Assembly: GCA_013285645.1 (NCBI GenBank)
Contig: JABDHJ010000008.1
Location: 61,833 to 108,656 of the forward strand
Source: Verrucomicrobiota bacterium
GTDB taxonomy: Bacteria; Verrucomicrobiota; Verrucomicrobiia; Methylacidiphilales; UBA1321
Length of the DNA: 46,824 nucleotides
Direction of reading: 5' to 3'
Shown: positions 17,509 through 21,439 of the stretch, piece after piece
Numbering within the stretch: position 1 is the stretch's first letter
Layout: every line of letters starts with the position of its first letter
Made by a program: the position numbers and the translations under genes
Notes under the pieces: generated by a model
Database searches by the model: none
The model's input: only the letters and a program-made list of their open reading frames with translations
Told to the model about the DNA's origin: nothing

Positions 17509-17735
17509 AAGAACCCCGGAGCAAGCTCCGAAGCATTTCAGAGGTAGCCGCCACTGTCCCCAGCGGCGGATGTCTTCCTTCCGTGGTAGCCGCCACACGC
17601 TGGGTGGCGGTGCCTTTTTTCCGAGGTAGCCGTCGCACTCCGTGCGACGGTCGCAAGTCGGCCCCACACTCAGAAATCGCGGGCTACCCCTAAAACCGAA
17701 ACAAGCCTCGGAAAATTCAACTCAAGGGATTAAAA
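17509..17735. repeat. Composite intergenic repeat block
   Basis: Contains the CGGAGCAAGCTCCG dyad, three GGTAGCCG-type hairpin modules and a second dyad near 17700-17720 with GAATTTTCC-like flanks. Positions 17509-17552 in reverse orientation closely match the transposon target (6488-6507 joined to 9472 onward), so this is an unoccupied copy of the transposon's target site. Spans most of the gap between the acid phosphatase and tRNA-Thr. Confidence 0.8.
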
Positions 17736-17739
17736 AGAG

Positions 17740-17811
17740 AGCCGACTGTCGGGTTCGAACCGACGACCAGCGGTTTACAAAACCGCTGCTCTACCACTGA
17801 GCTAAGTCGGC
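17740..17811 (-). tRNA. tRNA-Thr (anticodon TGT)
   Basis: Complete cloverleaf on the minus strand. Acceptor GCCGACT pairs with AGTCGGC; the D-arm is GCTC-AGTGGTA-GAGC; the anticodon arm is GCGGT-TTTGTAA-ACCGC with anticodon TGT; the T-arm is GTCGG-TTCGAAC-CCGAC. CCA is not encoded. A TCTCTTTTTA tract follows the 3' end. Confidence 0.97.
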
Positions 17812-17891: not shown

Positions 17892-19829
17892 CTAAGCTTC
17901 TTTTAACATTAATTTTAATCGACTTGGCTCTAACGATTTAATCTTATTCCAACGCTCAAATCGTTGAAGATTAGGCAGTTTATCGAAATCTAGGAACACG
18001 TCCGTTAAAGCTCTCGCATATTCAATTTCGCTATTTTCCAAAATTTTCACAGCTTGCTTGAAAATGCGATTGAATTCCCATTCTGGACGATTGAAAGGAT
18101 GTTCAAGGCAAAATTTAATGACTCGTTCCCAATTTGTCCCATCGATCCCTTGCATTCGGACGGCGAACCAAAGCGCAATACATGTCTCAGCTACCTCATC
18201 CAATTTTCGCAGGTCCATGGTGTTCCAAGCCAAAAGCAACGGTTTTTCCGCTTCGGAAAGTCGCCCCAAACCAACAAGAAGTTGCCCATAGTTGCAATAA
18301 TGCATCGCTAAACTGCTCGGGTCACTTTCACATTCGAATAATTTTTTATATAATGCTTCAGCTGCTTCCCCTTTATTACGTTTTCGCTCAAGAAAAATTG
18401 CATAATGGCCAAAATGATAAGTGTTCGTAGGACCTATCTCAATTGCCCTTTTGAAAGACAAATCTGCTTCGTCGAAATTGGCATATTGTATTTCTTGAAA
18501 ACTAGCATAGCTAAATAAAAGATCAGGATTGTCAGGGGCAGCTTTCAAGAATCTGTTAAAGAGATTTTTCGCTAGGTGTTTGTCACTCCGTATCAAGTGA
18601 TCAAGAAAATGTCTGCCCCCCCATTCACGCTCGCTCCAACGTAAGTGTTCAATTATAAACTCAACCACTTTGCGTCCTAGGTCGTCCTTAAGTATAGTGC
18701 TTAACAAGCTCTCCTCTTTATTCCCCTCATCAATCGTTTTTGATCGTTTGGCTCGTCTAGCCTCTACAGTTATTTCAATCGATAGATTCGATAAAGCTTC
18801 TCCACCGCCATCTAGCCGAACCATTTGCCAAAGGTTTCGCAAGGCTGCGAGGTAAGCTTTAGACCTAAGCAATTCAAGGGTCTCTGATTGTAAATGCCAC
18901 GCATCATGACCCAATGCTGCAAGAAGGTGTCGTTCGATTGCACGATAAGCGTCAAATAAATGCCCGCGTCGACGCCTAAAAATATGAGGCTCCTCTGTGA
19001 GCGCAAGCTGTGGATGGTATGGAATCTGCAATGAAAGATCGATATGGCCACCCCATGCTCGCTCAAAGGTTTGTTTGGCCATTTTTTCTCGTTCATCGAG
19101 CAAAGCATCCTCTCCATTTGGGACCGGGCTAAGAATGATCGTAAAATTGGCTTCCTTTTCTCCTTTTGCGATACGTAACGCTTTCAGAAATTCCGAAGTG
19201 CCCTCGACATTCTGTCGGTTCAATCCGCTGAGAATTACTAGGTAATCTGCTAAGTCTCTGGTACATATACCTGCTTCATCCGAAAATCCAGTTCGGCTAT
19301 CCACCAATACATAGTCATACAAATCTGCTTCTGCTAATTTCTTCTTGAAGGCACGGATTAGCGGTTCGCCTGTTCCCTCCTGATATAGTTCCCGCAGATT
19401 GAGAGCATCGAACCGTTGAGCATAACTCCCATCAAACTTTCCAGCGGGCATAATTTGTAAAGATCCATCCGGAAATTCACGAAGTTCTTTCGGAAGGTGG
19501 TACGTCTGAGTATATCGACTTGCAAGGTCACCGGCGGATAATGCGAACAAGTCCGCTTCTTTTCCTCGTGTTTTCGCATCACTTAGTAAATCCACAAATC
19601 CAAGTTGGAAAAAAAGCTCTTTCTGCTTTTCATTTGATAAAGAGGGATCGGGTGCATCTGGATTGAGATATGATAGTCCCGGAGCTTCCAAATCGAGGTC
19701 AACAACCAATACTCGAAAGCCTCGTCCGGCTAAATTACCTGCAGTATTGATCAAAGCCATACTTCGTCCGACGCCTCCCTTAAAGGAGTAAAAAGTCACA
19801 AATGAGGCTTTTGGCTTTTCTTGGATCAT
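17892..19829 (-). CDS. KGGVGR-variant P-loop ATPase with C-terminal TPR repeats
   Basis: 645 residues. FVTFYSFKGGVGRSMALINTAG (K17 to S23 is the P-loop) is a ParA/MinD-like deviant Walker A in which the usual second Lys is Arg. LVVDLDLEAPGL is the Walker A' / switch region, and YDYVLVDSRTGFSDEAG the Walker B. The ATPase core spans about residues 1-330. After a charged linker, residues 430-570 contain at least three TPR-like helical pairs (PDLLFSYASFQ, EADLSFKRAIEIGP, EAAEALYKKLFECE, LAMHYCNYGQLLVGLGRLSEAEKPL). The same architecture appears in FxSxx-COOH systems and other NTP-dependent conflict systems, from memory. Last gene of a three-gene operon (3-bp gap), more A+T rich than neighbours. 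No signal peptide, so cytosolic. Role unknown; a sensor or switch is likely. Confidence 0.85.
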   Translation of the reverse strand: MIQEKPKASFVTFYSFKGGVGRSMALINTAGNLAGRGFRVLVVDLDLEAPGLSYLNPDAPDPSLSNEKQKELFFQLGFVDLLSDAKTRGKEADLFALSAGDLASRYTQTYHLPKELREFPDGSLQIMPAGKFDGSYAQRFDALNLRELYQEGTGEPLIRAFKKKLAEADLYDYVLVDSRTGFSDEAGICTRDLADYLVILSGLNRQNVEGTSEFLKALRIAKGEKEANFTIILSPVPNGEDALLDEREKMAKQTFERAWGGHIDLSLQIPYHPQLALTEEPHIFRRRRGHLFDAYRAIERHLLAALGHDAWHLQSETLELLRSKAYLAALRNLWQMVRLDGGGEALSNLSIEITVEARRAKRSKTIDEGNKEESLLSTILKDDLGRKVVEFIIEHLRWSEREWGGRHFLDHLIRSDKHLAKNLFNRFLKAAPDNPDLLFSYASFQEIQYANFDEADLSFKRAIEIGPTNTYHFGHYAIFLERKRNKGEAAEALYKKLFECESDPSSLAMHYCNYGQLLVGLGRLSEAEKPLLLAWNTMDLRKLDEVAETCIALWFAVRMQGIDGTNWERVIKFCLEHPFNRPEWEFNRIFKQAVKILENSEIEYARALTDVFLDFDKLPNLQRFERWNKIKSLEPSRLKLMLKEA

Positions 19830-19832
19830 ATC

Positions 19833-20621
19833 TCAAGACCCTAAGCAGTGACAGAGTTTGGGCGTACGGGTTCTCGGCGAAGATTCTATGCCCAGGAACT
19901 CTTGTAGCGCGATTACAAGAGATTGGGAATTTTCACTGATATTCGAGGGAGCTTCTTTAGATGCAACCCATGCCGCTACTGGCAAACGAAATCGTTCCCC
20001 GCATCGTGATAAAACATTGCTTATCTCGTGAATGAATTCGGTTTTTTTCTTTGATCGTAGATCATCGCACGCAAGATCGAGTTTAAGAACGGAGGCACTT
20101 CCAGCACGTTCGTTATTTGGCATTTCTGGAAGCAGGCTAATTGCGTGCCTGAGATTAGTTGAAAGCACGCCGGAGAGCGCCAAGCTAGCGTAGTTTTCCT
20201 TGTCCTGCCTAAGAATTGAAATCCAGAAGTCAACTGACTGAGGTGGAGGCGTATCAACGAGCATAGCCAATACAGCGAGACGGACCTCAAGAGGAGTTCC
20301 GTGCCACTCAGGAAATCTATGGCTCGCCTGTGCCAGTAACTGAACAGCTTCAGGAAGCTTGAATGCAGATGTAAGTGAGAAAAGTTCTTCCGAATAAATT
20401 GTTTCTCCGCTTCCATTTACGCAAAATCGACGAACCAAATTAAGACAGGCATCCCTTAATGCCTCGCTGGCTCTAGGCATTAAACTCTTTTCTAATCGTA
20501 AAATGCCAAGGTGCGCGGGCTCATCTTGTGTTAGCTTGGGCAACGGCTCTTGACCGTGCAATGCCCTGTCCAGCCAAGCGCGGACATCGTCATGTGTTAG
20601 ATCATTCAGGGACATTGGCAT
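19833..20621 (-). CDS. Unrecognised helical protein of the KGGVGR operon
   Basis: 262 residues, no family recognised. Mostly alpha-helical by composition, with repeated Leu/Ala-rich segments (SEALRDACLNLVRRFC, LPEAVQLLAQASHRFP, LEVRLAVLAMLVD, YASLALSGVLSTNLRHAISLLP). These suggest an alpha-solenoid or HEAT-like scaffold. No Cys/His clusters or nucleotide motif. It ends 3 bp before the ATPase start and begins 23 bp after the upstream gene, so the three are surely one transcript. A partner or adaptor of the ATPase is the simplest reading. The start could be residue 3 (second Met). Confidence 0.7.
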   Translation of the reverse strand: MPMSLNDLTHDDVRAWLDRALHGQEPLPKLTQDEPAHLGILRLEKSLMPRASEALRDACLNLVRRFCVNGSGETIYSEELFSLTSAFKLPEAVQLLAQASHRFPEWHGTPLEVRLAVLAMLVDTPPPQSVDFWISILRQDKENYASLALSGVLSTNLRHAISLLPEMPNNERAGSASVLKLDLACDDLRSKKKTEFIHEISNVLSRCGERFRLPVAAWVASKEAPSNISENSQSLVIALQEFLGIESSPRTRTPKLCHCLGS

Positions 20622-20644
20622 ATTAATGGCGGGTTAGTTTAAGC

Positions 20645-21439
20645 TTAGAAAATGCGAAAAGGAAGCTGCAAGCCCTTACTAGTTTTTTGAGGCATCACCA
20701 CTTCGGGCTGTGGCTGTAATCCACTACTTCTTGATAGAGGCTCAGTCAGTCCCCAAGCGGCAGCGATATCAGTACACGGGCGATAGAAGGGGAAATCTTC
20801 GGCATCTGCAATGGTGGGGCGGTGAAGGGGAGGTGAATCAGTATCGAGATGACTCCAAATGAGAACGATTAATGCGTCATCAGCTCTAAAGTCTCCCAAG
20901 CCAAGCGCTGTGTATATTTCCTCGCGAGCTTGGGGCAACCTATCAAACGGATTGGTTCGATGATTATCGGGGTTAAATGTAGCCCAAACCAGAAAGTTAC
21001 CCAAGAGAGCATCACGAAGAAAAGGTTCGAACCATGCCAAACTGTGAGAACCTGAATATTTAAGGAGCCACTTCTTGGCCTCTTGTTTAGTTAAGCTACC
21101 CTTAGAAGCTTTTTCAACCGCATCCGCATGATGTTCCAAACCTTTCGCACGACCGAGAATCAAAGGACAATTTTCGCTCGGAATTACGCGCCCTTTAAAT
21201 TTGTGTTCTCGACAAGCCGCAATCCAAGCGTCTTTCGATGTGCCACTACTTGTCAGTTTCGAGGCAAAAGTAAGTAATAGAGCTGTGAAATGAGAGGGCT
21301 CAAGAGCAGTTTCATTCGCGACGTTGCAACTAACTTGGCTAAGCCTGCTATCGGATGTCCAGGCGGAGAATGCATCTCGAATTTGCTGCGCATTTGTGCT
21401 TAAACCGGCGAGAGCTTCTTCGTACACGGTAAGTGGCAT
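20645..21439 (-). CDS. Unrecognised first protein of the KGGVGR operon
   Basis: 264 residues, no certain family. The N-terminal half is helical (YEEALAGLSTNAQQIRDAFSAWTSDS, FTALLLTFASKLTSS). The C-terminal half has LGDFRADDALIVLIWSHLDT, a Pro-rich PPLHRPTIADAEDFPFYRP, then AAAWGLTEPLS and PEVVMPQ. I have an unverified memory of a similar PTxADAxxxxxFRP...GLTxP...PEVV signature in uncharacterised proteins encoded beside such ATPases. No membrane span or signal. First gene of the operon, with 277 bp of mostly empty sequence upstream where its promoter must lie. Could be an effector or sensor; nothing in the sequence decides. Confidence 0.7.
   Translation of the reverse strand: MPLTVYEEALAGLSTNAQQIRDAFSAWTSDSRLSQVSCNVANETALEPSHFTALLLTFASKLTSSGTSKDAWIAACREHKFKGRVIPSENCPLILGRAKGLEHHADAVEKASKGSLTKQEAKKWLLKYSGSHSLAWFEPFLRDALLGNFLVWATFNPDNHRTNPFDRLPQAREEIYTALGLGDFRADDALIVLIWSHLDTDSPPLHRPTIADAEDFPFYRPCTDIAAAWGLTEPLSRSSGLQPQPEVVMPQKTSKGLQLPFRIF

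Follow-up and report, generated by a model that had tools for sequence, protein, structure and literature searches.

Several described systems share parts of their design with the locus analysed here. In CmdTAC, an ADP-ribosyltransferase (ART) effector is encoded with an antitoxin and a third, SecB-like protein, CmdC, which senses infection, and TAC antitoxins rely on a C-terminal element that is read by the chaperone (PMC11618068). SPN/IFS, an NAD+ glycohydrolase with its immunity protein, is a two-gene arrangement, and SPN is a secreted virulence factor with His273 as its R/H-motif residue (PMC3795565). VMAP and related NTP-dependent conflict systems combine TPR or HEAT scaffolds with three-gene operons of strict order, and the MinD/ParA-like domains found in conflict operons are predicted to be inactive (Kaur et al. 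2020, PMC7159879). The locus in question is a three-gene operon in a 46,824-nucleotide stretch (hereafter the window) of contig JABDHJ010000008.1 from a Verrucomicrobiota bacterium (GCA_013285645.1), which encodes two proteins that we refer to as P3 and HEL and a KGGVGR-variant ATPase. Given that the three genes are kept together in very different bacteria and considering their predicted roles, the operon is likely to be a switch for self-poisoning on demand, perhaps directed against viruses. We give about even chances to its being a toxin-antitoxin-sensor module, with P3 as effector, HEL as restraint and the ATPase-TPR protein as sensor.

In the mechanism that we propose, P3 would consume NAD+, either as an ADP-ribosyltransferase or as an NADase, and HEL would bind P3 and keep it inactive. 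Detection of an invader would fall to the ATPase and its TPR region, which would then set P3 free under the control of nucleotide. The TPR groove may read the conserved tail of HEL, and the arginine-containing P-loop would be expected to keep nucleotide bound while hydrolysing it slowly and poorly. The most likely trigger would be phage infection, and the infected cell would end up arrested or dead.

Three co-diverging proteins

The operon (21439-17892, minus strand) is organised as follows, with intergenic gaps of 23 bp between P3 and HEL and of 3 bp between HEL and the ATPase:

20645..21439, minus strand: gene 1, P3, 264 amino acids, ATG start
19833..20621, minus strand: gene 2, HEL, 262 amino acids, ATG start
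17892..19829, minus strand: gene 3, KGGVGR-variant MinD/ParA-like ATPase with a C-terminal TPR region, 645 amino acids, ATG start
19777..19797, minus strand: variant P-loop of gene 3 (KGGVGRS, where Arg stands at the position of the P-loop Lys), read from the translation

The original prediction had described a three-gene operon with these two gaps, a TPR-bearing ATPase with Arg for the P-loop Lys, and two unrecognised partners, and all of this is borne out. Gene 3 reads SFKGGVGRS, reaches 154.4 bits against the cut-off of 90 for NF047398 (KGGVGR-motif variant AAA ATPase) and matches Pfam TPR_17 C-terminal to the ATPase domain. Neither P3 nor HEL matches a Pfam, NCBIfam or PADLOC family at E < 0.2. 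The prediction was to be abandoned if the partners were not conserved or if homologues were tied to housekeeping; neither was seen, as the two partners are retained alongside the ATPase.

With the window's own entries counted, 77 database entries were found for P3 by a single-sequence search and 119 by a profile search, and 26 were found for HEL. Scanning named genomes with P3 as the query gave eight loci (L002 to L009), six of which have the same three-gene order: Rhodoferax (L002), Competibacter (L003 and L004), Contendobacter (L005), Nannocystis pusilla (L007) and Akkermansiaceae (L008). In L006 (Planctomycetaceae), the contig stops within HEL. Six operons were compared in full (the window, L002, L003, L005, L007 and L008). 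Their genes are separated by 3-23 bp, and the pairwise identities of P3, HEL and the ATPase correlate at 0.96-0.99 (six loci, 15 non-independent pairs). The three proteins co-diverge, and their genes retain one order in different phyla. In L004:11608-13144 (Competibacter phosphatis), the ATPase frame is broken into two frames of 378 and 136 amino acids, followed by the contig end. L009:10001-10168 (Polyangia) holds just 56 P3-like residues, which match the P3 signature and do not include those around R97 or E246; this stretch looks like a decayed copy.

With regard to P3, the predicted structure (pLDDT 92.8) comprises a helical N-terminal part (residues 1-81) and an ADP-ribosyltransferase/NADase-like domain (about residues 82-264), which also contains the PTIADA...FYRP...GLTEP...PEVV pattern pointed out in the original prediction. 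ADP-ribosyltransferase-superfamily enzymes account for 19 of the 25 VIA rows for P3, ranks 1-14 included, and five of the other six rows cover residues 1-81 only. We thus predict an ADP-ribosyltransferase-like fold. R97 and E246, located on strands 94-100 and 244-250 of the model, are invariant in 58/58 and 42/42 aligned members, respectively, down to about 32% identity. P3 thereby shows the ART feature of an Arg or His in the first strand of the core, with a catalytic-type Glu in a late one, as judged without residue-by-residue superposition on a known ART. Of 92 P3 proteins that share 42% identity or more with that of the window, 88 have the P-E motif, and a Q or E lies two residues before the Glu in 86 of these 88. 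As Q/E-x-E is the signature of the ARTT loop (PMC3795565), we count this conservation in favour of the ADP-ribosyltransferase reading.

No sequence-profile similarity of P3 to any described ART family was detected, and comparison of P3 with two KptA proteins by hhalign was null. Such similarity is often missing between ART families. DUF6969 weakly matched 9 of 58 P3 members (best E 0.006), spanning just residues 20-77 or 37-77 in the two members whose coordinates were inspected. The operon could also be a conflict system in which P3 is no enzyme and uses an ART-like fold for binding or sensing, leaving the ATPase-TPR protein as the effector or as the organiser of an assembly. We regard this as unlikely, because two residues at the positions of ART catalytic residues stay invariant at such low identity and because Q/E-x-E is kept so consistently among the nearer members.

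HEL is predicted to form a HEAT/ARM-like alpha solenoid, followed by a C-terminal tail that is disordered yet conserved (PKLC in the window). The tail motif [RK]L[CY] is present in 20 of 31 members, and a looser form in 27 of 31. A CaaX-like or otherwise processed tail was considered and dropped, since the motif is followed by another 2 to 11 residues. Comparison of HEL with the two KptA proteins by hhalign was likewise null.

The KGGVGR motif is present in the window ATPase and in six orthologues. The TPR region turns over, with near-identical tandem units in four of the six testable ATPases: the best 35-residue stretches one TPR unit apart are 83-91% identical in L002, L003, L007 and L008, compared with 26% for the window and 34% for L005. 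The ATPase of L004 was not testable in this way.

Relatives of the ATPase in other operons

The NF047398 cut-off was passed in 4 of 40 relatives and in 6 of 240 genomes of the phylum, with the window's genome included in both counts. We read the neighbourhoods of the eight other positive loci (L041, L042, L043 and L107-L111). In L041, L042, L043 and L110, the KGGVGR ATPase is accompanied by a protein of 112-141 amino acids and an MqsA-type protein, which was confirmed by Pfam in L041 and L042 and judged by eye in L043 and L110. Type III restriction genes adjoin the operons of L043 and L110, and L043 also lies near a TOTE primase; in L043:1-13501 (G398), the ATPase, the MqsA-type gene and an unknown protein of 141 amino acids are found between a DNA methylase gene and a type III restriction gene. 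L107-L109 resemble PADLOC PDC-M28, with L108 confirmed (B, E 7e-147; C, E 3e-173) and L107 and L109 assigned by size and motif. No description of PDC-M28 was found in the literature searched. In L108:3620-6833 (G045), a gene of 147 amino acids upstream of PDC-M28 B and C weakly resembles an AbiV-type HEPN protein (E 0.0046).

Relatives of the ATPase also occur in 13 plasmid records. In the five that were opened, an MqsA-family gene directly precedes the ATPase relative in three, TIR is fused to it in one, and it stands in a row with caspase-family and beta-propeller genes in one. The KGGVGR ATPase head is a reusable part found beside toxin-like and conflict genes, which agrees with the conflict setting originally proposed for this family. 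Because relatives of the ATPase adjoin MqsA-type, TIR, caspase, PDC-M28 and type III restriction genes, the toxin-antitoxin-sensor reading of the window operon gains support. No described role for KGGVGR ATPases was found in the literature searched, most subscription papers lying outside that search.

The remaining locus, L111:3247-8310 (G187), has genes for proteins of 350, 325 and 1005 amino acids in the same order as in the window, the last of them being a KGGVGR-TPR protein with near-identical TPR units. It is possibly a very distant version of the window module. The P3 profile aligns to the 350-residue protein at the P3 signature (E 0.01, score 25.4). As controls, this protein ranked second of 120 non-self open reading frames, an unrelated frame scoring 29.1 and the window ATPase 25.2, and the best of 100 shuffles scored 24.9. 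The HEL match to the 325-residue protein had an E of 0.11. A search of 188 genomes for relatives of the 350-residue protein returned the protein itself and one weak match with a stop. The similarity of both L111 proteins to P3 and HEL is suggestive only.

A broader proposal, which we put forward tentatively and consider rather less probable than the module itself, is that the operon represents a new class of immune switch. A KGGVGR ATPase with a fast-turning TPR array would sense infection while holding the tail of a HEAT-solenoid antitoxin, and would free an undescribed ADP-ribosyltransferase or NADase, so that NAD+ is emptied or an essential target is modified; the ATPase head would serve as an interchangeable regulator that also works with MqsA-type, TIR, caspase and PDC-M28 partners. 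If the proposed module is right, the ART-type effectors would gain a new family (119 proteins by one profile search) and KGGVGR ATPases a concrete job, and a nucleotide-switched sensor that reads an antitoxin tail could apply to other operons with the same ATPase head.

Base composition, spread and genomic neighbours

The operon had been described as visibly richer in A+T than its neighbours, and the GC contents of P3 (0.475), HEL (0.478) and the ATPase (0.431), against 0.55 in the window flanks, agree with this. Every gene is GC-poorer than its own flanks in all six fully compared operons; the difference amounts to 7-14 points for the window and L005, 3-9 for L002 and L003, and 1-3 for L007 and L008. 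A search for HEL across 387 genomes of the phylum and one for P3 across 384 genomes of the class each yielded a single genome, the window's own, and P3 was found in none of the seven other genomes of the genus. The sporadic spread and the low GC fit horizontal transfer, for which no vehicle was seen in the plasmid, phage and viral collections searched. P3 was absent from all three of these collections, HEL from the plasmid and viral-contig collections (the phage collection was not searched with HEL), and the ATPase had no match in the phage collection. The PHROGs search gave no match for P3 or HEL, and a BFVD search gave none.

This distribution bears on a further explanation, namely that the operon is a mobile addiction cassette of the toxin-antitoxin type, which serves its own maintenance and has no dedicated sensing of invaders. 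Sporadic occurrence would be expected of such a cassette, and so would the position of ATPase relatives directly 3' of MqsA-type antitoxin genes, seen in three of the five opened plasmid records among others. Nevertheless, we consider it quite improbable, as P3 and HEL occur in no plasmid or viral record searched, P3 occurs in no phage record, and a third gene with a repeat array exceeds the needs of addiction.

The operon is flanked by a PAP2 gene, a tRNA gene and a chemotaxis-type signalling operon:

17739-17811, minus strand: tRNA-Thr

The upstream signalling operon consists of CheX, two receiver proteins and one Hpt/HATPase protein. These two flanking features had been recognised correctly, whereas the repeat block reported with them is weak, with three imperfect 24-nt copies (17536-17641, 71-100% identity, spacing 40-42 nt) beside the tRNA gene. 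The proposal of a tRNA-borne island was rejected: the operon lies 5' of the tRNA-Thr, the domain scan found no integrase domain among eight flanking proteins scanned, and the nearby repeats are weak. Promoter and terminator scans returned sites no more numerous than in shuffles. The gene upstream of P3 has close relatives (67-76% identical) in three genomes of the same genus, and since the sequence 3' of these relatives differs in each of them, the position looks variable; no clean empty site was found in this comparison. In L072, as judged by eye, the relative of the upstream gene is followed by a tRNA-Ala and a recombinase-like gene.

With regard to the orthologous operons, ten flanking proteins of L002, L003, L005 and L008 were scanned with Pfam and ten, one of them from L004, with PADLOC; L006 and L007 lay outside both scans. 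Pfam identified RecJ-type, MipA, Gate, ClpA/ClpB-type, CbiG, alpha/beta hydrolase, FtsK-type, enoyl-CoA hydratase and RNase E/G proteins. Of the ten, one looks conflict-related (the FtsK-type protein of L008), one was left without a match and the rest belong to ordinary cellular functions. PADLOC matched two proteins. The Clp-type protein of L003 matched PDC-M37B (E 1e-34) and DolB (E 1e-28) over its AAA domains; in our view this is cross-matching by a Clp ATPase. In L008, the FtsK-type protein matched SspH (E 6e-26) and mad8 (E 5e-20); this protein of 1334 amino acids with a coiled coil (L008:1109-5113) is encoded on the same strand, ends 140 bp before P3 and was not seen beside the other orthologous operons. 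As the scanned flank proteins are mostly ordinary cellular genes, the orthologous operons stand outside visible defence islands. The candidate conflict system of the original prediction is supported in so far as the operon is conserved across phyla, sporadic and GC-deviant, and as the expected co-occurrence of the three genes was found in six of eight loci, but not as regards a repeated location near defence genes.

These neighbours could favour a regulatory or housekeeping role in place of immunity, such as reversible ADP-ribosylation of some target in the cell or ParA-like positioning of an assembly. The operon also occupies the same position in three Competibacter-type genomes, after a malate-synthase-like gene that was identified by eye in L003 and to which related genes correspond in position in L004 and L005. 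The rarity of HEL and P3 in the phylum, class and genus, GC below that of the flanks in 6/6 loci and the turnover of the TPR repeats speak against such a role, and we judge its probability to be low, similar to that of the addiction cassette.

Comparison with described systems

The toxin-antitoxin-sensor module proposed here resembles the VMAP systems in its MinD/ParA-like domain, its TPR and predicted HEAT scaffolds and its strict three-gene order. It differs from VMAP/iSTAND ternary systems in that MoxR, vWA and VMAP are lacking among the Pfam and NCBIfam matches of the three genes. PDC-M28, a PADLOC candidate defence system, has a KGGVGR ATPase domain in common with it (PDC-M28B, E 3.6e-26). 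However, the window ATPase matches positions 125-343 of the 438 of the M28B profile only, and neither P3 nor HEL matches PDC-M28C or any PADLOC model. The MqsA-KGGVGR operons (L041, L042 and plasmids) have the same ATPase family, a small compact operon and an antitoxin-type partner. Their partners are, in contrast, a Zn/HTH MqsA-type protein and an unknown protein of 112-141 amino acids, which are unrelated to P3 and HEL by search; in Pfam and NCBIfam, no MqsA or HTH family matches P3 or HEL.

In comparison with SPN, P3 has an arginine at the R/H-motif position, and P3 and HEL are accompanied by an ATPase. CmdTAC offers a parallel in its three-gene logic, and the conserved tail of HEL may be compared with the C-terminal element of TAC antitoxins. 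The third protein is, however, a KGGVGR ATPase-TPR protein rather than the SecB-like CmdC, the SecB family being absent from the Pfam and NCBIfam matches of the three proteins, and no sequence similarity of P3 to a known ART family could be detected. Because of the lack of a SecB-like chaperone and of profile similarity between P3 and described ART families, we file the operon outside CmdTAC and SPN/IFS. In outline, it would work like either of these systems while being a member of neither.

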